A stretch of 64,000 nucleotides of DNA, taken from contig OZ038464.1 in the NCBI GenBank assembly GCA_964036295.1, positions 6,806,001 through 6,870,000 of the forward strand, in the 5' to 3' direction. Below are positions 4,603 to 47,300 of the stretch, piece by piece. The notes under the pieces were generated by a model, which ran no database searches, had not been told where the DNA came from, and saw only the letters and a list, made by a program, of their open reading frames with translations. The position numbers were made by a program, and so were the translations under genes. The DNA comes from Plumapathes pennacea. Lineage: Eukaryota; Cnidaria; Anthozoa; Antipatharia; Myriopathidae. How positions within the stretch are numbered: the stretch's first letter is position 1; each line of letters begins with the position of its first letter.

Positions 4603-7600
4603 ATGGGATACGATTTTACGCTGTTTTGGCGGGATTTTCTAAAAGATGAGGATACGCTGTTTGTTTTGATATACTGTTTGTTGGAATTGAGCAAGAATTC
4701 GCCGTACAACAAGACCCGCACTGTGGCCACTCCGATGGCTGAGATGGAGGAATCGTAAGTGTGTTTTTGAAGACGTTGTTCTTTGAAATGAATGCGAAAT
4801 AAAAAAATCCGAAACGATAACTTTGTAGAGTGGTTTATGTTCTTTCCAAAAATGCGTTCGATCTGCAATTTCCTTCTAAAAATATACATCTTACACCAAG
4901 GGCTGTGGACCAGTATCAGACTCCACTTCCAATGCGGCGGCCGAAGGGTCGATTCAACATTGGGTTGTACGCGAAACGGAGGAAACTACATTTTGAAAAC
5001 TGCGCGAAGGAAATGGTCGAAAATAATTCAAAAGTCAAGCATATGCTAAACCGCATAAACTATGCTAAGAGAAAGGTGGGTGAGGAGCTTTCCATCGTGT
5101 TTTATATTTTAATTTAGTGCGTGTCGAGTACTGCCTCTGGAGATTGTGGAGAGGAATCAATGAGGTTATTGATCACAAACACGTCTATTGACATCAATAT
5201 AGGAATTTTGCTTTGTTGAATTTGCACAACAATGTTCTTATGATGAACACATGATGAAGTCGAACGGATAAATACATTATCAATTGTTGTATGGTCATAA
5301 CTTCAATGATGAAAATGGTAATATTATATGAGCCATTCAGAAAAGGGTCATATGGTGGCCCCAATAGGATTTCTTCAATGGATGGGGGAGACTGATACAA
5401 ATAATACAGTGCATGGAATATCAAAAAAAAAGAAAAGAAAAATAGTTAAAGAATTTTTAGACTCATTGTGCCTCAACATTTTTGAAGGCTGAAAAACTTG
5501 AGGCTTGTGCTGCAGACGAGTGGCCACTGACAGCAACACCCAAGCGTCCAAGGATGCCCAACAAAGAAAGTATTGCTTGCAAAGAAAATAGTGACAACCT
5601 TGATCTGTCAAAAGTGCAAAATTGGCGAAGGAGGAAGGCGAGTGTCATGGCACTCAAGGAGATTCACTGCACGCCTTCTTCTTCAAACAATGACCCTATT
5701 TTCAATGGGATGTGGTCAACACTGATGAACGAGTGTTCTAGTAATCAACTGGCAACATTCATCAAATCTTCCAAGGTCTGCACTGAGAAAGTACTACCAA
5801 GTGTTGTTAGGGACAAGGTTCAGGAATATGAGAAAAGTGAACAGAACATTATTCGGAGTGCAACCTTGCTTTACAAGGGGGGCATTTTGAGTAAACGAAA
5901 GTACAAAGACATGAGGAAGGATCAAGTGAGCTTTATGCCTGGTGTACCAGTTCCAAGGGCTCTGCCATATGACCGCCTGCTGTCTTACATCAAGGGTATC
6001 AACATGGGAACTGTGAATGATTTAGAGGTAATATGTCAAGGTCAGGTTTCATGTAAACGTAAACAAGGATTTCTCATTCATACAGTCTCATGTAAGTCAT
6101 TTCACACTTTCATTCTTGTCTCGTGGGGTTACCAGTTTGAGTTTGGTGAGTCTCATGTAATTGCCCCTATGGGCACCATGTGAATATGTGTGCAAAAAAA
6201 AGGAAAAAACAAATAAATACATACATACATAAATAAATACATACATAAATAAATGAATGAATGAGTGAATGATTTGAATAAATGGACTGGTATAAGTTTA
6301 GGGGACAGGACTACTATAAATTATTAGTGCAACATGCCGAATTATATTGCTATACATTTGGTGTAGATGCATTACATACCCATATATAACAATACTGTAG
6401 TTTGGATCAATAGCTATAGCTTAATATTATCATTCCTGTTCCATAATAAATTCAGGATTTTGCATCAAAGCTGGGAAAGCCTGGTGTAACTGGTGTGTAC
6501 CGTCCCTTGGAAGAATTCCTGCTGCGTTTAGCTGAGATGTATTTGCAGGTAGATGAACACAACAAAATCCTGCACTGGTTTCATGGAGAGGAAGGAAAAT
6601 TCTTCATTGCCATTGGAGCAGATGGAGCACCTTTTGGTAAAGATGACACTGCCACATCCTTCCTTGTAAGCTTCTTGAATCTTCTTGATGGAGTCCAGAG
6701 CTGTGACAACAACTTCCTCCTGATGGGAGCTAACTGTGATGAGACCCATGAACTCATGTATGAGTACACAAAGCATGTTGTTCAAGAAATGGTTCAAGTT
6801 GAAGAAAAGGAGTATGAAGTTAGAGGTAAGAAAGTTTCATTCCAGTGTAAACTAGTTCCCAGTGACCAGAAGTGGATGGCTTCAATGGCTGGGGAACTGA
6901 ACAATGCAGCAACCTATTTTTCAACATTTGCAAATGTGACCAAAAGCACAATGATGTCCATTGGAAGTTCTATTGGTGAAGATGGAAGGTCAACATGGAA
7001 GCCATGGACCCATGAGCAACGTGTCAAAGATGCAAAGGAGGTGGCTGCATTCAAGAGGAAAAACAAAATCCCTCCAGATTGTAAAGACAAGAAAGACAGA
7101 GGCAAAGTAACTACCTTCATTGCAACTCATCAGTCAAGACAGGAACAGGAACCTCCCCTTGGTAAATATGTGGACACATTAAAACCAGAGCCTCTCCACA
7201 ACACTAACAATGCTTGGCAAAAATGGAATCTGGACATCATGAACATTGCTTTGACACTAACAAATCCAAATGACTTGAAGAAGGCTGAAGGTAACACTGA
7301 CAAACTTCCTCCCAATGCCCCCCTGGTCAAGTACATCAAATGTGTTGAAATGGTCTTCAAAGCTGGAAGACTGGTGAAGAATGTAAAGAAGTGGCTCAGA
7401 GAGAAGAAGAATGCTGAATCTTTCCAGTATAGATTTACTGGGAAGGAATCCAAGCTTTTCTGTTGGCACTTTATGCATTTGTGTCAGACTTTGATTAGAA
7501 TTGAAGGCATCGACAATGGCAAACTACTTCATTTGCATGCACTTGCATATTCAGGGTTGTGCTTACGTAATGCTGTTTCTCTTTACAGTAGGGTCCACAT

Positions 7601-9734: not shown

Positions 9735-9845
9735 ATATCGTGAAGGTAATTTTCGTATTGAACAAATGAATGCTTGCCACGTTATTTTGTGAGGTTTGTC
9801 GGATGAAGTGGATATAGAAAGAACATATTAACCCCTTCACTGCTA

Positions 9846-9906
9846 GTATGACGTACTCAGTACGTCTTTTTTCAACAATTTGCCAGCATGACGTACTCAG
9901 TACGTC
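9846..9906. promoter_or_regulatory. Subterminal palindrome pair in piggyBac 5' end
   Basis: Two copies of GACGTACTCAGTACGTC, a near-perfect palindrome around a central C, lie just inside the left terminus, about 40 bp apart and each preceded by [AT]GCNNG/AT-type sequence. They are likely transposase-binding or end-pairing sites; this is inference from position and symmetry. Confidence 0.6.
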
Positions 9907-11653
9907 CAAATTAACTGAAAATGTATGGAAACGCCCGCATATGAGAAAACAAAAGGATCGCATATCACTAAAGTTTTAATAAGTTGCAAAAGAATGGGTA
10001 CTAATTTGTCCGTGTATCGAGTGATACATGAGGTATTTTCTTCAATCATCATTTTGCGCACGTTTCGTCGCCAGATTGAAAAATATTTCAAGATTCACGT
10101 ATCTTTACCACTAAAAATGAGCCGCTTTACTACGAATGACGTTTTGGATAGGATTTGGAATGAGTCCGGAGATGAGGAGGATTATTCTGACGATGACGGC
10201 CCTTGGAGCATCGAAGATGCCAATGAAGAAGAGTATTTTCCCGAGGAAGACGCCAATGAAGAAGTGGTAGAACAGGAGGAACGAGACCATGTGGACAGTT
10301 CTGATGCAGACGCTCCTTCTGACGATGATGAAGAACCTCCCAGAAACATACCATGACGTCGGCAGCAGGAAAACCCTCGGTGTTGGGTAAGAGCTAATCT
10401 TTCACCTCCACGTGATATTCCGTTCACTGGTAATTCTGGCATTCAAATCGACACAGAAGATTTCGAACCATGTAACTTTTTCCAGTTATTTATCAACGAC
10501 GATCTGTTGAATTACCTTGTGACTGAAACAAATACTTTTGCTGAGCAATTTGTCAGAGATAATGTTCAAAGTAGAAGATCAAGAGTGAAAGAGTGGTTTC
10601 CAACCACAAAGAAAGAAATGAAGCAGTTTCTTGGCTTGACATTTCTGATGGGTATTATCCAAAAACCAAGCATCCAGCTGTACTGGTCGAATGATCCAAT
10701 GTATTGTACTCCAATTTTCAAGCAAGTCATGAAGAGGGATAGATATCTGCTGATTCTGAAATTTCTTTACTACAACAACAATGAGAGAATGCCTGACAGG
10801 AACAACCCAAACAGTGACAGGCTGTTCAAGATCCGCCCTTTAGTTGACCACTTGTTTGAAAAGTTTCAAGAGATGTACACGCCCACCCAAAATGTGTGCA
10901 TTGATGAGTCACTTGTTGCATGGAAAGGAAGACTGCATTTCAAACAATACATACCACTAAAACGGGCACGCTTTGGCATAAAGTTGTTTATGCTGTGTGA
11001 AGATGGAGGATATACCTATCGATTCAGGATCTACACTGGCAAGGGAACGCAAGCTACACAGAACCTGAACTTTTCTATTTCAGAAAGAGTTGTGGTTGAC
11101 CTGATGAGTCCTTTGCTTGGCAAAGGATACAATCTTTGCACTGACAACTGGTACACAAGCATTCCCCTTGTACAGCACCTTTCTGACAATGACACATTGG
11201 TATGTGGTACCATCAGGAAGAACCGGAAGGGTTTCCCGGAGGAAGTCAAGAATGCAAGGCTTCCCTTTCATGGTATGATTGCCTACCGATCTAATGAACT
11301 TCTTGCTTTAAAGTTCAAGGATAAAAGAGATGTCTTCATGCTCACATCAATCCATGATGACAGCATGAGCAATGTGAGAAACAGAAGAAATCCAAGAAAC
11401 CCCCTGGCAAAACCAAAGTGTATTGTCGAATACAACAAGCATATAGGAGGGGTAGATCGCACAGATCAACTGATTGAGCCCTTCACAATTGCCAGGAAGA
11501 GCCTGAAATGGTACAAGAAACTTGCCATTCACCTGATCCAGCTTTCCTTTCTGAACATTTTTATCCTGTATGCAAAGGATGGGGGACGGAAGTCATTTCT
11601 GGAGTTCCAGCACAGTGTCGTTGGAGCACTTCTGTTTGAGGGCGACACTCCAG

Positions 11654-11885
11654 TATGGTGGCCGAGGAGTGTCACCTTTGAAATGTCATTTTATGTCGAT
11701 TATTTTTTTTTCTTTAATATTTTTAATTTAATTTTCTTTTTTTTTTTTTCTTTCGTTTCATTTATGTTTAGTTTCGGTCTTTTTGAAGTTAAAATAAAAT
11801 CGAAACAAAAAGAAAATCGAAACAAAATTATTTTTAAATGAAAATGAAATGAAATTCTTCGTGGCCGAGGAGTGCCACCCCACCC
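11654..11885 (+). repeat. E3 left terminal inverted repeat
   Basis: Starts TATGGTGGCCGAGG and is AT-rich inside. It ends with a second copy of the terminal motif: GTGGCCGAGGAGTGTCACC at about 11659 and GTGGCCGAGGAGTGCCACC at about 11861. It pairs with 15714-15948. Confidence 0.95.
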
Positions 11886-11957
11886 ACGCCAGTCCACTTT
11901 GTTCTCGAGTACCCGTCGTTCCGTAGGGGCTTAGCTTGTTTTTGGCGGGCTTCCATC

Positions 11958-13338
11958 ATGTCGGGAGGCAAGCGATCCCAATCAGAAATTTTTAGAGACT
12001 TGAACAACGTCTGAGAGCGAAGAGGACAAAGAAAGGAGGAAAAGGGAAGGAGCAAGCCCCCAAACGAAGAATACGAACTAATTGTTCAAAGGTTATCATC
12101 GGAAGTTTCGGGCAAAGCCCAGAAGTACTGAAGAATAGGCCCAAGGGAATTCGTTTCACTGTCCGAGGGTGATGAGGTCGAGCTCACCATGGACTTGGCC
12201 AAACGCGCTTGCGAGAAGCACTTCAGGCCGCAACTTGGAGCAAATTTAATCTGCGATGTATTGGCCGGGGAGCAGGGCCCGTCGTGCAGCACAATCGAAC
12301 AAATTCCTGACTTACGAGTAATACATGTCCGCTTCGTGGCACGACGTCCACAGGAAGGCAGTGTGGAGCAAACACGTTCAAGACAAAGTACTGAAAGCCA
12401 GAGACCTTACCACTTCGATAGCGTCAGATTTGGAAGTTCTCCTTTACGAGAAATAGCGAAGAGTGACGGACCTCAACGAGCTGCAGCCCTGGCAAAGCAT
12501 ACTGCCCCAAGTACAAGCGAATTCGTGCCTATGAGTTTGTCTGTTGCAGACATGATAAAGCTGGGACAGTTGGGGGCTCCTAACCGGACGACAATTGTGA
12601 AGCTCTATTTGTTTGACTTGGAGTCCCAGACATGGGCGCAGGTGCCAATCACGGTTGAGTTTTTGGAAGAGGAGCAACCAATCGGCAAGGGGGGCTTCCA
12701 TACTGCATACAAAGCCAAAACAAGACATCCTCAGTTCAGGTCTACGAATTGGGTGATCAAAAGATACCTACCGAGTGCAGTTGAGGGCATTCACTCACTT
12801 GGGCAAACAACGGAACAGCACACACGCAAGGTGGTTCAAATGCACCTCCTTGCCAGGAACTTTGCCTCCCAGCTGGAGCAGAAGATTGCACAGGAAGACA
12901 TGAGTGAACTATTCGGAAAGTGCCTGGCATTCAAAAAGATATATCATGGAGAAATCGGTGTGGGTGAAGGGGAAACCAGATGTCACTGTGGAGGAATTCA
13001 TTGGTGGCTGCTTCAGAAAGTACACCAACAACAATGGTGCCAAATGTTTCGATGACACCGATGCCATTGGCCAGAAGGCTGAATGTCTTGCACATTTCTC
13101 ATACGAAAAGTCTGAAAGGAAGCTGCTACTGGTTGATATTCAGGGTTGTGGGTACCACCTGTTTGACCCCGAGATTGCTTCTGCTGATCTTTACAGTGCA
13201 GATGGAGATGGCAGAGAAATTCTTTATTGTGCTGGCAACCTCTCAGCAAGGGCCATTGACAGATTTGTTTCAACTCACAAATGCAATGCATTTTGTGGCA
13301 TTCTTGGACTTGAGACTCTGCCTGTATTAATGCCATAG
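11958..13338 (+). pseudogene. Alpha-kinase (eEF2K/MHCK-type) gene, broken
   Basis: ATG 11958 (CATCATGTCGGG) opens a frame with TGA at 12012 and 12129, each one change from CGA; the first could instead mark a pair of frame slips. The kinase domain starts near 12640: glycine-rich GKGGFHTAYKAKT, ATP-site lysine in NWVIKRYL, then after a one-base frame slip near 12955 VTVEEFIGGCFRKYTNNNG, LLLVDIQGCG and the zinc-module GNLSARAIDRFVSTHKCN..C. These are the standard alpha-kinase landmarks in order. The N-terminal ~220 residues are unassigned. Ser/Thr kinase activity is expected for the family, but the stops and frame slip make this copy inactive as assembled. Confidence 0.88.
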
Positions 13339-13590
13339 CTACAAAAACAGTATGTAAATGAGTAAGTTGCCTTATTGTGACACTTATCTTGACATGTACA
13401 AGTTAGGCCAAGTTTTTCAGATTTCTTGTTCCTGTTCAAAACATTTCATTTGGCATCACTTTAGGTGGGCCAACACATCTAACAACACGTTATGCAATGG
13501 ACATAATTGCCCCAATGTCCAAATGTTACCCTAACAAGGTGGGGGAGTAAACACTGCATCATAAACAACAATACTGAGTATAACAGAGCA

Positions 13591-15664
13591 TCATGATGAG
13601 GGTGGTAATCTGAAGTTTCTTTTAAGGTGCATGTAAGCTGCAGCACAATTCTTGGGCTCTGTCTCTCCTGGATTTGGGATGGTACGCTCACACTCCCTTC
13701 TAAATGCTGGCTCCAGGAAGTCTTCTTCAATCTCCAACACACCCGAATGAACTGCAGCTTCTTCCAGTTGCTCTTTAGTGAGTGGTAGACCTAATAAAAT
13801 AAAAACAATTCCATGAGGAATGGAACATTTGATATTACTGTCAAGCAAAACCTTCACATACCACATTCTTCTAGGCCATATTTATCTGGGAAAGAGTGTA
13901 TATGTTCTGGGACACCATCTGGCAAAATAGTATCTTTCTGTGCACGTATTCTGTGGTTGTTCCACACAAAATCCTTGAGTTTATTCAACTCTTTCTGAAG
14001 AATCGGTATCATCACAAACGCCAGGAGCTTCCTGTTTATGATCCAAAGCAATTATAGTAAGTGCCAAATTCTACCAATACATACTAATGAATGCTGCTAA
14101 AATTCTATGTTTCTTTTTTTTTCCATATCTCCAAGAGAATCCTGTTTCAAGTAGCATTGTTTATCAGAAATTTACTGTTCATACTGAATAGTTCACCTAT
14201 GGTTTATACATCACTGAACAATATTAGAGAGTTTGAGATAAACCTAACCCCAACCCTTTACTGCAAACTGTTAATAACATCCCGCTGCATTGTACAATGT
14301 ATGTTCAAGGTACACTAGACCAGTGAAAAGGGTTTTCCTTTGGTGGGCAGGATGGGATGATACTGTACATACATACATAAAATGTATTTCATCTAGAATT
14401 TAAGAGTAGCTTTTGACAAGCTAATGTGTTAGTCAAATTGCTGGTATGTACACAAGCTGACCAGCTTGTCCTTGACCCTTGGCAATTACCCTAACTTGTG
14501 GCTGTTGCTCTGTGGTTGTTATAAAGACACAAACCTGTCAGTATCATCATGTGGATCATAGTAGCCTTGATCCTTCAACAGCATGAAATATTCTTTGAAA
14601 TACTTCTCAAGCCTTTCATGCAGCTCCTTCCACCACCTTTCAATCTGTTGTCAAAGTAACAAATCAAAGCTACTTTCATCACTTACCTACAAGCAAATTC
14701 AAGCAACATTTATGCCATCCGTCCATGGAGGAAAAGTAATGGGGAGAAATCATTTTTCTCTGGCCATGCCAATTTTGGTATCTCTTCATTAGGGATCAAA
14801 AGGGGTAAGGGGAGTTTCTGATGAGCATCCCTAGAGTGACATGTTCATGTACTGCATCAAAAAGAAAAAAAAATGATGATGATGATGGTGATGATGATGA
14901 TAATACTGTATCCTTACTTGATTTGATGTTGATGGACCATACAAAACTGTGTCAGTTGGATCAACATTATCCTCATGGTTCCGTCGTAGAAAGGCATGCA
15001 TGGCAGCCATGGTTACTGTCTCTGTACCCTTGTCTACTCTTATCATGTTGGGCATGATTCCCGTTTCTATCAAATACTCCAAGTACCACCGTCCAATTAC
15101 TTTTGGGTCGGAATTGGTAGTCCATATCCGCAACCACATGATTTTTTGACTGGCCGTATCAATGCACCCATAGATGGCTAAGGGGAACGTACTGCATTGG
15201 TACCCCATGAGCTTGTCATGGCCATCTAACGAGTGCACCCAGTTGGGCCCTTTAGAGCTGAAGTTGCCTTTTTTTCTGCGATTCTTCGCTCCAATACCCC
15301 CTCGTGCTTCAAGTCCTTCTGGATCAAGTTCTTTCATCACCGTGTATACCTCATCCCTACTCACACTGAGACCATACTCTTGCCGCACTTTTTTATGCAT
15401 GGCCCGGTACCCGAGAAGTCGCCCAGGGCCGTCTAGTTCCTTCTGAACGGCATCTCTCACGGCCTCCGTCGAAGCACCTCGGTTATAGTAGATTTCGAAA
15501 AAGCGCAAACGACGATTGAGGGAGGTAAGGCTCCACTCGTACATTGGGAAATCTCTCCCCACAAAATCGAGAACTTCGCTGCGTTGCAGACCTCGTAACA
15601 TGTGCGTTTCCAAAGCTTCTCGTAACCCATGATCGTTTTTCCACGGAGCTGATGAGTCCGCCAT
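13591..15664 (-). CDS. E3 integrase-type transposase, four exons, 408 aa, intact
   Basis: Minus-strand exons are 15664-14918, 14644-14535, 14031-13862 and 13790-13591. Phases match throughout (409 codons with stop). Donors include GTAAGG and GTATGTG; acceptors end TTGACAACAG, AAACAG and TTTTATTAG. Start ATG follows CCAAT. The rve/RNase H-fold core has D147 (HSLDGHDK), D211 (IRVDKGTET) and E251 (SNQIERWWKEL), with GPSTSNQ just before the glutamate. The glutamate codon lies at the start of exon 2, so intact splicing is needed for activity. The N-terminus has a helix-turn-helix-like stretch. This integrase family occurs in fish and cnidarians. Complete catalytic triad and no stops suggest a functional gene. 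Confidence 0.88.
14868..14904. repeat. GAT trinucleotide microsatellite
   Basis: (GAT)n with one GGT interruption, inside the first intron of the E3 transposase. Confidence 0.9.
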
Positions 15665-15713
15665 ATTGGAACTCACTACCAGGGTCTCTCGTTCTACAAA
15701 AGGTTCCCCACTA

Positions 15714-15948
15714 GGGTGGGGTGGCACTCCTCGGCCACGAAGAATTTCATTTCATTTTCATTTAAAAATAATTTTGTTTCGATTTTCTTTTTGTTTCGAT
15801 TTTCTTTTAACTTCAAAAAGACCGAAACTAAACATAAATGAAACGAAAGAAAAAAAAAAAGAAAATTAAATTAAAAATATTAAAGAAAAAATAAATAAAT
15901 AATCGACATAAAATGACATTTCAAAGGTGACACTCCTCGGCCACCATA
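15714..15948 (-). repeat. E3 right terminal inverted repeat
   Basis: Reverse complement of 11654-11885 with only length changes in A/T runs and about one substitution. It ends CCTCGGCCACCATA, followed by target copy CTCCAG. Confidence 0.95.
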
Positions 15949-16577
15949 CTCCAGACATCCCAAGAGAGGAATCAGTGGTTCAATTGACAGAAAGGCACTT
16001 CATGGCCCCAATTCCACCAACAGACAACAAACAGAAGCCCCAGAGAAGGTGCAGGGTGTGTTTCAAGAGGAAAGTTCGGAAGGAATTGCGCTACTACTGC
16101 CCCAGTTGTCCCAGCAAACCTGGACTCTGCTACTATCCGTGTTTTGAAATTTACCACACCCAATACATCTATGGCTAGTGACACTACTATGCTGAGAAAG
16201 TGTTGATAAACAGTAGTTAAGTGATTTAAATACTTCTGTATAGTTTTTTACAGCCTGTGAATATTTTTTAAGTGTCAATTGTAAAGTTTGTTAAATTTTC
16301 CAAAAATGGCTCCGCACAGGGGTAAAAAAAGTGTCCGCAGCGAAGGGGTTAAAAGTGGATGGACAAAATAGCTAAAGACAGAGATGTCGGATGGAGCAGA
16401 TATAGAGAGAATAAATTATGATTATAATTTGTATATATATACTGTATATATACAGTCAATCCCGAAAACGTCATATAAAATATATAAATAGGCAAATATA
16501 CCTAACACGTGACCAGATATAATTGTCACGTGACCTTGCTAACAACATTACAAAACCACGCGCATGGCGAATTTGAA

Positions 16578-29299: not shown

Positions 29300-29395
29300 C
29301 CGGTGGTTTACACATGCGATTTGAAATCGCATCGAAAATCGTCATTTAAAATCGCACCAAAATCGCATCAAAAATCGCATGTGTAAACGGGCCTT
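29300..29395. repeat. Small palindromic MITE-like element
   Basis: GGTTTACACATGCGATTTGA on the left is mirrored by AAATCGCATGTGTAAACGGG on the right, with further ATCGCA units between (AAATCGCATCGAAAATCG). The total is about 95 bp, with hairpin potential. Confidence 0.7.
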
Positions 29396-29399
29396 TATG

Positions 29400-30560
29400 G
29401 AATAATAAATGGATACTAGCAAATGGAAAGTCCGTTTATAATAGGCAGTTAGCCGGGAGAGGCATAATTAGAATAGGAGATCTGTTCACGGAAAGAAATG
29501 AGTGGATCACCCAAAACAAATACCCAGAGCTTAATCTTTCGCCTAGGGAGTTCTATGAACTGATGGTCATCCTCGATGCCTTGCCTGCACAGTGGCGTCA
29601 ATCAGTGAAGACACACGGGAATGAAAATAGAAACACATTTGAGTTGCAAGAAAGGTTACAGTTGTATCTGAACGGTAAACAAGTTACCCTCCTCAAAGCT
29701 GATGCAAAAAACATTGGTACCGAAATTCAGTCAAAAGTAGAAACTCTACCAACAGCCAGACTGAGGTATACAACACAACATAAAGATCATGACCTAAATT
29801 GGAAAAACATTTATCAACTACCCTTTCAAGTTGCGAAGGACTCCAAATCACGCAAATTTCAGTATAAAATCCTTAACAAATACTTAGCCACGAACGCTTT
29901 CCTACACAAAGTAGGTATCAAACCCTCTCTCTGCTCTTTTTGCAAGGAGGAAGACGAATTCCTGGAGCATTTATTTGTATCTGGTCGCCATACCAAAAGG
30001 TTTTGGAATGATTTCACCACTTGGTGTAAAGAAATTGAGATAGACATTGACCTTATTTCAGAAATAGACATAATATTTGGAAAGTGGAAAGAGAAAGATT
30101 ATTTTCTATTTAACCACTTACTGATTATTGCAAAACAACACATGTATCACTGTAGATCAAGAGATATCCAACCTTTTCTTAAAATTGTGTCTTAGTAAAT
30201 TAGAATCGGTATTTCATCTGGAAACCGAAATAGCAGCATAAAGCGATAAAAAACCCCTTTATCTGAAGAAATGGAGTAAACTAATCAAAAGATGTGGGTG
30301 GACTCGTTCTTGAGGGGTGCCTGCCTGATGTCTGAGGCGAGCGAGATAGCCCGTATATCTTTGATTGTGTATATGTGCATAGCTGTATTTTGTGTGTGCG
30401 TGTGTTTGCTAGTTTGTTTGTTTGTTTTTTGTTTTGTTTTTTGTTTTTGTTTGGTATGCTCGTTTTTGCGTGTGGTTGTGTATTATTGTTTCGAAGTACT
30501 TATTAAACTGTTAAGTGCATGATTATTGTAAAAAAATGAAATGAAATAAAATTTTGAAAA
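29400..30560 (+). mobile_element. LINE (L1/Tx1-type) 3' fragment with zinc-finger RT tail
   Basis: One frame from about 29400 to TAG 30195 encodes the C-terminal zf-RVT region of L1/Tx1-like LINEs: WILANGKSVYNRQLAGRGI, FQYKILNKYLATNAFLHKVG, and the cysteine cluster PSLCSFCKEEDEFLEHLFVS..RFW. It is 5'-truncated. The 3' UTR is GT-rich and ends in an A-rich tail near 30540. The frame is open, so the insertion is fairly recent. The family differs from the other LINEs in the window. Confidence 0.85.
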
Positions 30561-33739: not shown

Positions 33740-35360
33740 AACACAACCTTGACCCAGTTCTCCCTTGGCATGGCCGTCGTCATCAGGACCGTCGTCGTGA
33801 GTTGCTTGAAGTCTCTAATGTCAACTTTGGAAGCCCACGTGGTTCTCGCATGAGACAAAAATTCCAGTCCCGCCTGTCATCCAACAACCTTCACCAGATC
33901 ATCAAGGAACCTACAAGAGTATGCGAGTCTTCGCAAACTACGATTGACTTGATATGCGTCAATTCCGAGCACAAAGTGGTCCAGTGTCAGGTCGTACAGA
34001 GCCCCATAAGTGACCACAGTATTGTCCTTTGCGTGTGGAAAGGTGGAGTTCCTAAATTACTACCTCGAACATACAAATCAAGATCATTCAGAAACTACTG
34101 TAAAAATTATTTTGTCAGTGAGTTGAAGAATGTACCATGGAATGCTATTGATGCGGCAGACTCAGTTGATGATGCTGTCTTCCTTTGGGAACGCTTGTTT
34201 TGCGGCATAGTTTATTGCCACACTCCAGTCAAGAAGAAACGTGTGAAAGAATACCAAACACCTTGGGTTAAAACGAAGTTGTTAGAAATTCGCCATAAAC
34301 GCGATTACCACCATCGCAAAGCCCATGCACGTAACTTGCAGTATCACTGGAACAAGTACAGGAAAGTGGATAACATTGTGAACCGGGAAGAGAGGCAATT
34401 AAAGTCAGACCACTTCTCTAAACTAACTGAGGAATCGAAATCTGACAGTTCACAGATGTGACAGTCATTTAAACAGGTGCTTCCCTCTAAGTCAATGAAT
34501 GACACTCCAACAATCAGGCAGATAAACAAGCTCTTCACTAAGCCCAGAGGCATAGTTGAAGTCTTTAATAAGCATTTCCCCACTATTGGCCAGAAGCTCA
34601 GTAAGGTTTTTAACCGTTACCAGAAAGCTGTGCTGCCTGAGTTCAGTCACATCACTGGACTTTGTACTTACTCAACTCCGCAGCCTAACGACAAATAAGG
34701 CTACTGGTCTCGACAAAATCAGTGCAAGACTGCTGAAAGATGCTGCTGTTGTTGCACCTGCAATCAAATGCAAAATGGTTGAGACACTCACAAAAAAAGA
34801 CCCAATCTTCTCTTCTATTCCCTCACTCTTATCTGGATTTCGTTTGACAGCATCTTTCCCCCCTCCCCCGTTTCAATGTTGAGTATCCAATATCGCACGA
34901 CGATATTTCAGGCCCGAACAACATTGAGACGGGGGGAGGGGGGGCAGAAATGAAGAAACTTAAAAACCGATAAATTGCTCAAAATATGCACAGTGTCTCA
35001 ACTACTTTTGCATTTGATTGTGTGCTGGTGAAGCTAATCAACCTCTCGTTTGAACAAGGGTGTTTTCCCGGACAACTGGAAATCGGCTAGAGTTGTGGCT
35101 GTTTAAAAGTGGTGACCCAAGTGATTGCAACAATTATCGACCCATTTCTATTTTGCCAACGGTAAGCAAAGTAGTGCAACGGGCTGTTCACTCGCAGCTC
35201 TACATTCCTTCAAAATAACAATTTGCTTTATGCCAAGCAATTTGGTTTTCGTTGCGGAAGATCCACATCTAGTGCCCTGCTGAATTTACTGATGAACTTC
35301 TGGGCAGCATTGACCACGGAAAAGTGACTGGTGTTATATACCTCTGTCTTCGATCTTCTA
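33740..35360 (+). mobile_element. LINE endonuclease/reverse transcriptase fragment, broken
   Basis: The frame 33802-34461 holds the end of an APE endonuclease (SNVNFGSP, IKEPTRV..TTIDLICVN, SPISDHSIV). Next come a pre-RT region and LTTNKATGLDKISARLLKD. After an interruption containing a C/G-rich hairpin, NNYRPISILPTVSKVVQRAV and QFGFRCGRSTSSALLN follow. The element stops near 35360 before the RT active site, where Gypsy-related sequence begins. Multiple stops; inactive. Confidence 0.85.
34858..34944. repeat. C/G-rich hairpin element, copy 1
   Basis: CCCCCCTCCCCCGTTTCAAT..GTTGAG on the left and CAACATTGAGACGGGGGGAG..GGGG on the right form a ~26-bp inverted repeat with a 30-bp loop. A second member lies at 42532-42640. 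Confidence 0.75.
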
Positions 35361-35700: not shown

Positions 35701-38700
35701 ATTGATGTATCTCTGTATGACAAGATCAAAAACACTGTATGACAAGATCACAACAAAGCCACTGCAGCCATCCTCAGCCAAACTGGAGAGTTATACCAAA
35801 ACATGCATCAAACCTGTTGGAAAGTGTGAGCTGTCCTGTTGGGTGTTCGGGAAGCAGCACCAGGTATGCTTCCAAGTTGTTGATGGCAACTATGCACCCC
35901 TTCTGGGTAGAGTGTCCTGTGAGCAGATAGGACTAATCCAACGTATCAACACAGTTAGAAGTGAACGTATTCTGGATGAATTCTTAGAGGTGTTCCAAGG
36001 ACTTGGACTGCTGAGGTGTTCCAAGGACTTGGACTGGATGCTTACCAGGGAAATACCACATCACTATTGACGCATCTGTGACCCCGCAATACATCCACCA
36101 AGAATTGTTCTTATTATACATTAATGATATAGGGGTAGGATTATCGTCCAACATTAAATTATTCGCAGATGACTGTTTACTCTATAGAACAGTCAACTCC
36201 CAAGATGATGCCAAACAATTACAATCAGATCTCGACATCTTAGTAGAGTGGTCAAAAACTTGGCAAATGCTGTTTAATCCAGCTAAGTGCTACACCCTTA
36301 GAATATCTAGGCTTCACTCTGAAACTGTACATAACTACCACATATCAGGGACAGCACTAAAATCAGTTAGTGAGCATCCTTACCTAGGTGTGCACCTGTC
36401 AAACAGTTTAAGGTGGAACGCGCATATTGCTGAAATAACCAAGAAGGCAACCAAGCAGTTGAATTTTGTCAGGCGTAGTCTATCCAAATGTTCCACCCAG
36501 GTGAAATCGATGGCATATAAAACACTAGTAAGGCCACACTTAGAGTATGCTTCAGCAGCATGGGACCCCTATACTAAGGGGAACATAGAACAAATTGAGG
36601 CAGTCCAACGCAGATCTGCACGTTTTGTAACCAACTGTTATGATAGGTATAACACTAGCATAACTAGTCTTATTAAGCATATAGGGTGGGAAAGCCTCGA
36701 AGTTCGGAGAAAAGTCAATCGTCTAGCAGTTTTTTATAAAGCCCTTAACAACCAAGTAGCTGTTCCACTACCAAAGGACCTTTTAACACCAGTAAGATCT
36801 ACCAGACACCAACACTCCCGGTCCTTTATTCAGATGCCCACTGGTCCAGATTATTATAATTATAGTTTTTATCCTAGAACCGTAAGAGATTGGAATGCAC
36901 TACCTGAATATGCAGTTCAAGCAATTAATGTAGAGAGTTTTAAAATGGCCATTGTACAACATTTTGGGAATTAGGATTAGGATTAGGATTTACAATTAAA
37001 TATTTTAGGATTTTATTTCTCTTAGTACTTTTAACTTTTAATTGACTACTAGTTTTGCTAATTAGATAATTAGATATTTTGTATTTAGGTAATTAGATAT
37101 TAATTAATTGATTTAGTTGACTGGTTGATTGGACAGAATGCTAGCCATCCTATGACCTATTTGTTTTTTTATCAATTTATTTGTATTGGAATTCTACGTG
37201 ATGCTGTAAGGCTTTGTAGAAAATAAACATAGATCTAGAGAAGGGTGCCCCACTCTAAGCAAGAACCATTACTGAAGGAGCTGGATCGTATGGAGAGTGT
37301 CGGCATCATAGAGGAAGTTCCCCTGAATAAGCCAGCAGATTGGGTGAGCAGTCTCGTGTGTGGACAAACCCAATGGATCCCTTCCTGTATGTTTGGATCC
37401 AAAGGATTTGAATCGGGCCATTAAGCAAGAGCGTTATCACCTGCCAACAGTGGAGGATATCACTGCCAGTTGCACAGGATCTAGGAAGTTTTCAACTCTG
37501 GATGCTGAAAAAGTTTTCTACCAAATCCAGTTAGATAAAGAAAGCAGCAAACTCTTGACATTCAATACCCCTTTTGGGAGGTATCGGTACTTGAGGATGC
37601 CAATGGGTATTAAATCTGCCCCTGAAGTCTAACAACGAAGGATGGAACAAATCTTTGAAGGACTGCCAGGTGTGCAAGTCATTATGGATGACATTTTATT
37701 ACATGGGCCTGGTGACGAGGACCATGACACCCGTTTGAGAGCTGTACTACAGCATGGCAGCATGCCCAAGACAACAAACTTCGACTAAACAAGTCAAAGT
37801 GCCACATTAGTCAGGACAAAATGAAGTTCCATGGGCGCATCTTCACCAAAGATGGTTTGAAGACTCCGAGAAGGTCAGAGCAGTTGCTGAAATGCCAAGA
37901 CCAACAGACAAGGCTGGTGTACAAAGGCTACTGGGAATGCTGAACTATGTTAGCAAGTTCATACCAAACATGGCAGACATTACAGCACCACTAAGGCAGT
38001 TAATACTCCAGGATGTGGAGTGGCACTGGCATAAGCAGCAGGAGCAGAACTTCAAAAACAATCAAAGAAACCCTTTCAGCAGCGCCTGTGTTGGCCTACT
38101 ACGATGCAAAGAGCTAACACTACAAGTTGATGCTAGTTCAACTGGTCTGGGTGCAGCTTTGATCCAAGAAGGCCGACCAGTAGCCTATGCCTCGAAGGCC
38201 CTTACCCCTACCCGACAAAGCTACACCCAGATTGAGAAGGAACTTTTGGCCATTCTATTTGGGTGTGCCAAATTTGCAGAATATATTGTGGGTTGGGACA
38301 CAGCAGTTGAAACTGATCACAAGCCGCTGGAGGCTATAATGAAGAAACCCTTGTACACCGCACTGTTAAGACGACAACGGACGTTAGTCCAACTGCAATG
38401 GTTTACAAGAATTTCGCTGGTCTATAAGCGAGGCGTAGGTCTTCACTTGGCTGATGCTCTGTCCCGAGCCTACCTGAACGAACCACTCCAGAATGCAGAA
38501 CTCCTTGACCTCAATCTTGTGGAGCACACGATTTTGGACTCACAGTTGACCAGGTTTGTTGAAGCCACCAAGGTAGATAAGGAGCTGTCCTAGTTGCAGA
38601 AAGCCATTTTGTCTGGATGGCCAGACACCAGAAATCAGGTCCCAACTAAGATGGAAAAGTACTGGAACAACAGAGAGGAACTGACCCTAGCCCAGGGACT

Positions 38701-44300: not shown

Positions 44301-47300
44301 ACAGGTTCAATCAGTACCAATTATCCGATTGAAATCAATTGATTTTTTAAATAAATTGAACAAGCTGGGTTCCAATGCACAATTTCAATCAAAATATGTA
44401 GTATCCCCACCATTTCTCACACATGCCTCAACAAATTGGTGTCACATTAAAGGTGTTATGATTCAGTTTATTCCTCTAATTCAAATCTCTGTACTACCAT
44501 ATGTTAATATAGTGACCATAGAACAAAAGAAGAAATTGAACCCTAAAAAAAACAATATACATGGACATGGACAAGCTTCCATTTAATTTGTTGTTCTTTT
44601 TTCTAGGAGTTGGTTCAATGATCGGAATAAAGTCAGGGAAGGTGATTGGTTATGGAACAAGGACTAAACGGTGTGCAATTTGTGAAGCAGCTGGTCGAAA
44701 TGCAAAACAGCCAAGAAAACATGACTGCCGTCTCAACTGGAGTGCCTCATCAAAAGCCATGGAGCCAGATGTGTGTGCTGATCTTGTCCAGGCTTGCAGT
44801 GCAAAACATAACACCCAAGTTACAATTCTAGTTGGTGATGATGACTCGTCTACAATAAAGAAAGTGAGGGACACTGTGAACCATGAAGTGGAGAAATGGT
44901 CGGATATAGTCCATGCCAAAAGATCCTTTGGAAGTGCCTTGTACAGTCTTCAGTCCAAGCATAAAGGAAACCTCAGTGCTAAAGTGATTGAATACCTGCA
45001 AAGATGTTTTACTTATGCACTGAAGCAAAATAAAGACAATCCTGATGGCGTAAAGAGTGGTTTGGGTGCTATAATTCCCCATGCATTTGGAGATCATGAC
45101 ACTTGTGACAGCTGGTGTGGTTACTTGAAGGACTCATCGAACTATAGCCGTGCATCACTACCATATGGGAGAGACCTTCAGGGGGACAGCCTTAAGCAGG
45201 ACCTGCAAGGAATAATGGGAGTCTTCATCAACAATGCTGAAAAGTTAGCTCCCCTGGGATCAAGCCAGGCAAATGAGGCCCTAAATAACACCATCGGAAG
45301 CAAAGCACCCAAAATTAGGCACTATGCCTCAAGTGAAAGCAATGACTATCGGGTAGCCTGTACTGTTAGCCAAAAGAATATTGGTCATTCCTATGTGACA
45401 CAGGTTAGTATTAAGTATGATTTAATAAGGCAGGTTTCTAGGTTTGTGATCAAATCAAATTGAATTTTTATTTCAATTTCAAGGTTTCAGGAAGATCCCT
45501 CCAACTTTCTTTGTTGCATTGTAGGCTCTTGAAAAAATCCAGCTCTCACCAGGAACCCACTGTGAGAAGTACTCCAGTAAGATAGACAGAAAGATTAGAC
45601 AGCTGAGAGCCAGGGAGAACACAAGAGAATTCAAGAGAAAGAGAAGAACAAGAAAGGAACAGCGACTGACAAAGAAGAAACAGTTTGAGACCAGAGAAGG
45701 CCCTCAGTATGAAACTGGCTTGGGATACAGATGTGATCATGAAAGTGGAGAAATCCCAACACCTAATCAACCATCAGAGAGCAAAGAAGTCATAAGGCCG
45801 AAAGTACACACAAAAGTAGTGTTTGACTTGGAGACATCCTGACGAGGTAGTTTTTCAAAAGAAAAATTAATTCAATTAGCAGTCGTGAGCCTATCAAAAA
45901 GATTGTGCATCAGGGAATTTGAGAGGGCTTTATACGTTATATTACCAGAGGATAAATTGGATAAAGAAAAAAAAGATTTTCTGAGAATTGTAATAATGAA
46001 CTCCTTTTGAGCAGGCTAAATAATATTATCTAAATGCCAATTTACAAAATATACTACATTCCTCAAAACACAATGTAATGTTTTCTTAATACTTTTTAGG
46101 TAATAACACTGAAATCCTCCAGATAGCTGCTACCGATGGCAGTGAGGAATTCAATGTTTATGTCCTGCCACAACATCGAATATCACCAGCAGCATCAGCA
46201 GTCAACAAACTTACCTTTCTACATGGCACTCTGTTCTACAATGGGAGACCTGTGACAGCAGTTCAGATATCCAGTGCCCTGAAGGAGTTTGTCAGTTGGT
46301 TACAGCCAAAGGCTCCATGTCTGCTTCTGGCTCACAATGCCAAATCATTTGATGAAAAGCACCTGATGAGAACCCTTGGGGAAAACAACTTGTCGGGGGA
46401 CTTGAAAGAAGCAGTGCTGGGATTTTCAGATACCCTGACAGCATTCCGGAAACTTCTCCCAGAACGGAATTCACACAGTCAACAAAATCTGGCAAAAGAC
46501 CTGCTTGGTGAGAGCTACGAAGCCCACAATGCTCTGGCAGATGTTCAAACATTACACAAGCTGACATCCAAATTCCTGAACAGAAACCTGCTGATCAAGC
46601 ACAGCTTTACGATTCCTTGGATCACAGAGCACACCACCTTCCTCAATCAGAAGAGGGACAACCTGACGACTTTGTAACCTCTCATCAATGCAAATGCAAT
46701 CTCTGCAGGAATGGCAGGCAAAGCTGCGGCTTCAGGCCTCATACTACAGCCCCTAATGTTGGCATTTCAGAGAGGTGGTGTGGATGGCCTTTCTCATGTT
46801 CTAAGAGAAAAATTCAATGGAAAGCCAAGGGTTACAAGAAATAAGCGAATAATAGCGCAAATTTGTAAATATTTTCAGTCCAAATGGGCGTCAATTCCTG
46901 GTCACTGAAGTCTTATTATCCTGTTAGTGAGATAGTTGCATGTACATCTGGCAAGGTTCCAATATTGTAAGCCTAAATCAGTTTGTATGACAACTGAGTC
47001 AGCGAATCGAATAACGAATCGAATCATGCCCTCAGTAATTCGCAATCATACCTTGCATGTGGCTGCTAAGTTCCAAGAGCAAATCACGTTTGATTGTAAG
47101 GTTTTTATCCCAATGAATATTGCCTTCTTTTTCTTCTTCGGTACCGAGGGTAGACTAATTTGTACAAGACATGAGAAAATTATCTATTGTATCGTATATC
47201 AAGCCAAAATAATTTCTTCCTCAAAAACGAAACAAAGCTTACAGAACTCCTCAAAGTACTGGCTTACCGTGTTTAACTTCTCCATTCATTGGTTTTGTTT

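Follow-up and report, generated by a model that had tools for sequence, protein, structure and literature searches.

IS3EU/GingerRoot transposons are described in the accessible part of PMC10045372 as having TA..TA ends, a 6-bp target-site duplication and a DDE core of the IS3/IS481 kind that lacks the HHCC zinc domain. According to the accessible part of a study by Kojima (2025; PMC12730594), all TET+ IS3EU families of fungi hold a transposase gene and an alpha-kinase gene in opposite orientations. We analyzed a 64,000-nucleotide stretch of the genome of the antipatharian Plumapathes pennacea (contig OZ038464.1, positions 6,806,001 to 6,870,000; hereafter the window), which contains a complete 4295 bp transposon (11654..15948, defined by its DNA letters, terminal repeats and duplication) with a DDE transposase gene and an alpha-kinase gene lying tail-to-tail. 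Our overall explanation, which we think somewhat more probable than its negation, is that this is an IS3EU transposon whose kinase acts as a regulator or helper. What is established is the element itself, its ends, its duplication and its intact transposase, together with a kinase that is a standing gene, is conserved in sequence and is carried by recently mobile copies. The initial annotation of the window had stated that no described DNA transposon family carries a kinase of this type; this was wrong, as the accessible text of PMC12730594 reports an alpha-kinase in fungal IS3EU elements.

The left terminal inverted repeat (11654..11885, plus strand; first letters TATGGTGG) and the right one (15714..15948, minus strand; last letters CCACCATA) are identical in 232 of 246 aligned columns when the outermost 240 bp of each end are compared, and the same repeats were recovered by mechanical repeat finding in the window. 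The element is flanked by an exact 6-bp target-site duplication, CTCCAG (left, 11648..11653; right, 15949..15954; neither copy is assigned a strand). Alignment of the ends thereby reproduced exactly the annotated coordinates, inverted repeats of about 232 bp and 6-bp duplications. The insertion interrupts a piggyBac-type transposase open reading frame (ORF) on the plus strand (10357..11653, resuming at 15955-16178; Pfam DDE_Tnp_1_7, 1.4e-87), and removal of the element with one duplication leaves a frame that is open across 506 codons. A piggyBac paralogue (L040; 94% identity over 298 compared positions) does not have the insert, and another (L041) is uninformative because it has a deletion at the place of insertion. 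The related piggyBac stretches sit on contig C2.

The transposase gene, on the minus strand, is intact and encodes 408 aa in four exons separated by three GT-AG introns. Exon 1 (14918..15664) holds a region resembling a helix-turn-helix (HTH) and D147 and D211, and exon 2 (14535..14644) holds E251; exon 3 (13862..14031) and exon 4 with the stop codon (13591..13790) follow from the gene model. From sequence, D147, D211 and E251 are read as the catalytic residues, in that order. The protein matches Pfam rva_4 (1e-23, 84.5 bits; cut-off 26), which bears out the earlier description of an intact integrase-like transposase. HTH_21 stayed below threshold (26.7 bits; cut-off 28.1), and no HHCC zinc domain was reported in the Pfam scan of the protein. 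In the alignment with related transposases, the third catalytic place holds a letter other than E in L027, L028, L030, L031, L033 and L035, probably because it lies at an exon edge where match ends extend into introns. The best rva_4 matches in the genome (C1:16291107, C1:18089174, C1:12446269 and C2:17887853), whose scores are nearly equal and whose frames stay open for 408-525 codons, form a separate set outside the loci found with the window transposase.

The alpha-kinase gene (11958..13338, plus strand, with an ATG at 11958; delimited by Pfam, ORFs and protein matches) is broken by stops within its first part and by a frame change near 12.97 kb. Pfam Alpha_kinase matches on two of its reading frames (0.0014 and 1.7e-26) uphold the assignment of an alpha-kinase to the strand opposite the transposase. 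The catalytic lysine, the aspartate and a His-His-Cys-Cys zinc site are present in an alignment to TRPM7 and are conserved across 94 aligned relatives; the role assigned to each of these residues is the one we take it to have in alpha-kinases. In the L032 kinase, F replaces C421. Domain and fold comparisons of the N-terminal part, a basic helix followed by a conserved domain, gave no clear match; the domain is possibly ubiquitin-like (beta-grasp fold). Against TRPM7, myosin heavy chain kinase A and eEF2K, the nearest solved relatives, the kinase is about 20-27% identical. Because these relatives are so distant, the kinase was not copied recently from a gene of this sort, and comparison with solved or named kinases lends no support to a recent origin from any such host gene.

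Because its ends, duplication and transposase fit the superfamily, we consider it very likely that the window element is an IS3EU with a structural kinase. The ends read TATGG..CCATA in the window, in agreement with the signature TA..TA / TAYGG..CCRTA, which is also seen in further families; 6-bp duplications are found in the window, in other families and in the copies L036-L039; and the transposase is of the DDE integrase type without an HHCC zinc domain. These are the features of IS3EU/GingerRoot in general, as given in the accessible part of PMC10045372. By the same source, Ginger1 and Ginger2 (4-5 bp duplications) and IS481EU (about 4, 15 or 25 bp) are ruled out by the 6-bp duplication here. 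With the fungal TET+ IS3EU elements, as far as the accessible text of PMC12730594 describes them, the window element shares the 6-bp duplication, the TAYGG..CCRTA ends, the IS3EU transposase and the opposed alpha-kinase, and because of this agreement the kind is already known. The fungal elements have a TET/JBP gene between the two genes; in the window element 252 bp separate the kinase and transposase stop codons, which leaves no room for it. What we add are members in an animal genome, linkage statistics, evidence on selection, a young family and an N-terminal domain that is possibly ubiquitin-like. Among PMC12730594, PMC10045372, PMC5295586 and PMC4469406, which came from a literature search largely without subscription journals, an alpha-kinase gene in a transposon was mentioned by PMC12730594 only, in its accessible part. 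No paper on the transposon kinase itself was found in a search that left most subscription journals and Repbase outside. The word "kinase" is absent from the accessible main text of PMC10045372, a comparison that did not extend to the animal IS3EU entries of Repbase.

The two genes are linked throughout the genome (290 Mb in 24 contigs). A search with the kinase of L019 gave 103 matches (97 of 152 candidates scored) and a search with the window transposase gave 115 (102 of 390 scored), which merged into 69 kinase loci and 91 transposase loci. A transposase lay within 8 kb of 40 of the 69 kinase loci, for a chance expectation of about 0.5% per locus, and 38 of the 40 linked pairs were convergent. 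Linkage was found for 38 of the 64 transposases at least 44% identical to that of the window and for none of the 27 below 44%, a cut chosen post hoc with the list already seen. We conclude that, in this genome, one transposon lineage has the kinase as a standing gene.

Ten related loci (L019-L028), found as pieces of about 66-78% DNA identity (six through the kinase part, four through the transposase part), all gave kinase matches in tblastn, and nine gave transposase matches; at the tenth, L026, the transposase lies just outside the fetched stretch. Five have exact 6-bp duplications (L020, L021, L023, L024 and L028), that of L019 is off by two bases, and no terminal pair was found in L022, L025, L026 or L027. 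L021 also contains a second, inverted kinase fragment (4690-5602 versus 6031-6943, a 913-bp inverted repeat, 99.8% identical). Of six further loci picked by transposase alone (L030-L035, six of 14 selected in this way), L031, L032 and L035 matched the kinase, as did L030 with a fragment. In L019, L020, L021 and L031 the kinase ORF runs uninterrupted through the entire gene (450, 442, 444 and 467 codons).

Four full-length copies of another family (L036-L039; 5410-5418 bp) are young. Identity to L036 is 99.5-99.8% for the other three, and all four have exact duplications that differ from one another (GTTGAC, ATACAG, CTTGTG and CTACTG). Each has matches to every part of the transposase, their kinase genes contain one GT-AG intron, and their kinase-domain frames have no stops. 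The near identity of these copies, their distinct duplications and their unbroken kinase frames indicate that the kinase travels with recently moved elements.

The initial annotation had asked whether the kinase is in all copies or only in some. A genome DNA search with the element gave 89 matches from 40 scored candidates of 104, and the window's own family was sampled as the window plus ten copies (L009-L018). Both full-length copies, the window and L009 (4472 bp, gene order as in the window), have the kinase. L010 keeps the kinase and is missing most of transposase exons 1 and 2. The remaining eight (121-2534 bp) are internally deleted: the kinase is gone, as are at a minimum transposase exons 3 and 4, and in several of them the transposase end is arranged as a fold-back. 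The fold-back copies L011, L012, L013, L014 and L015 consist of transposase-end material between exact 6-bp duplications; L011 and L012 have identical inner structures at different sites. Of the 11 copies, 8 lie between exact duplications (the window and L011-L017, of which L016 and L017 have one flank in common); that of L009 has a one-base mismatch, and L010 and L018 have a single end only.

Selection on the kinase was assessed between families, where the ratio of nonsynonymous to synonymous substitution rates (dN/dS, omega) is low; judged from these sequences, the kinase appears to be under purifying selection. The within-family dN/dS of the window's family was not used, since its broken-frame pieces make the value unreliable. 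FastTree trees of kinase and transposase for seven families had three of four internal splits in common; of the 945 unrooted trees possible for seven tips, we count 9 that resemble a given tree at least this much. This agreement is weakened by the partial sequences of L027 and L032, and L035 takes different positions in the kinase and transposase trees. The L019 transposase forms a long branch.

Protein searches found 272 and 293 kinase relatives for two lineages at E 0.001 or better, and 467 transposase relatives. Among the best 120 kinase matches for each lineage most are unnamed; those with a name come from cnidarians, save one that belongs to the hemichordate Saccoglossus. Named sequences in the best 120 transposase matches are cnidarian, apart from a few of Ciona and a single one of Patella. 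In Exaiptasia, a kinase (LOC110237033) and a transposase (LOC110237035) have adjacent numbers and lie on contigs that are both 374,143 bp long, and kinase and transposase matches also pair on contigs of equal size at 338,010, 3,650,991 and 3,130,359 bp. We infer that these equal-sized contigs are the same contigs; a further pair, at 1,503 bp, is probably coincidental and was disregarded. When viral_contigs was scanned once with the kinase, no relatives turned up.

From the anatomy of the element, the transposase would bind the long terminal repeats, excise the element and reinsert it with a 6-bp stagger. The recurrence of the same gene pair in many related transposons suggests that a phosphorylation step exists in the transposon life cycle. 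The kinase, retained by selection, would work in trans on the element's behalf. Its most likely substrate would be either the transposase or some host factor controlling transposition, and its basic N-terminal helix, together with the domain after it, would serve for docking. We put the chances at about even that the kinase, whose activity is predicted, is such a regulator or helper of transposition. The suggestion in the initial annotation of "cargo or self-regulatory roles" thus survives in its regulatory half, which we favor; "cargo" is the weaker word for a kinase that behaves as a standing gene.

Several observations weigh against this overall explanation. The kinase is broken in all three kinase-bearing copies of the window's family (the window, L009 and L010) while the window transposase is intact, so that the earlier question of whether any kinase copy is intact is answered by zero of three here and by open frames in other families. 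Two of the six loci picked by transposase, L033 and L034, have no kinase. Genome-wide, 29 of the 69 kinase loci, often fragmentary, stand without a transposase inside 8 kb, and 26 of the 64 closer transposase loci lack a kinase, 10 of these being pieces of the deleted copies L011-L015. A Mantel test of kinase against transposase identities found no correlation (r -0.05, p 0.57), synonymous sites are saturated between families, and the candidates of both genome-wide protein queries were scored in part.

The kinase could instead serve counter-defence: it would leave the transposition reaction itself untouched and free the element from repression by phosphorylating host proteins of silencing, chromatin or repair. 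Fungal IS3EU elements add a TET/JBP dioxygenase that the author, in the accessible text of PMC12730594, reads as a means of escape from silencing, and the kinase is conserved, yet is a separate gene that can be lost in copies keeping an intact transposase, as in the window. No host target is known, and many families have the kinase irrespective of their site, which is compatible with both views; we regard this explanation as rather unlikely.

Still less probable, in our judgment, is that the kinase is an old captured gene kept by linkage, without benefit to the element. The broken kinases of the window's family (three of three) and the 26 of 64 closer transposase loci without a kinase, 10 of them pieces of L011-L015, are what such a passenger might leave. 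Against this stand the catalytic residues retained across 94 relatives, the low omega between families and an arrangement that is the same, in position as well as orientation, in 38 of the 40 linked pairs. With 40 of 69 loci linked, a conserved sequence and carriage by young copies, the kinase is more than a chance passenger. A single capture event, in which one transposon picked up a host kinase close by, has nothing in its favor beyond the presence of the kinase itself. It is rejected by the kinase matches in all ten distant loci L019-L028 and by the genome-wide linkage (40 of 69), and is further opposed by the distance of the best solved relatives (about 20-27% identity).

The window is dense in mobile elements. 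It contains a Mutator-like transposase ORF (44540-45460; Pfam Mutator, 1.4e-54) and ORFs at 29350-30192, 33742-34458, 36015-36971 and 37811-38590 with zf-RVT, endonuclease, reverse transcriptase or RNase H matches, two of which are below the Pfam cut-off. Direct repeats of 26 bp at 9841-9866 and 9881-9906 are 92% alike, with GACGTACTCAGTACGTC in each.

A broader proposal, which we think less likely than not, is that the kinase is the obligate second protein of an ancient animal and fungal transposon lineage and a phosphorylation switch for when or where the transposase works; the apparent alpha-kinase expansions in cnidarian genomes, perhaps also in rust fungi, would then largely be this transposon's gene. 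An alpha-kinase expansion has been reported in rust fungi (accessible parts of PMC4469406 and PMC5295586), and it may share the same transposon cause. For annotation there is a warning, as cnidarian proteins named eEF2K, TRPM6-like, vwkA-like and myosin heavy chain kinase are among the close relatives (best 120 matches) of the transposon kinase. As a standing gene, the kinase would provide the transposon with a signaling enzyme of its own, and the young four-copy family L036-L039 makes its role directly testable.
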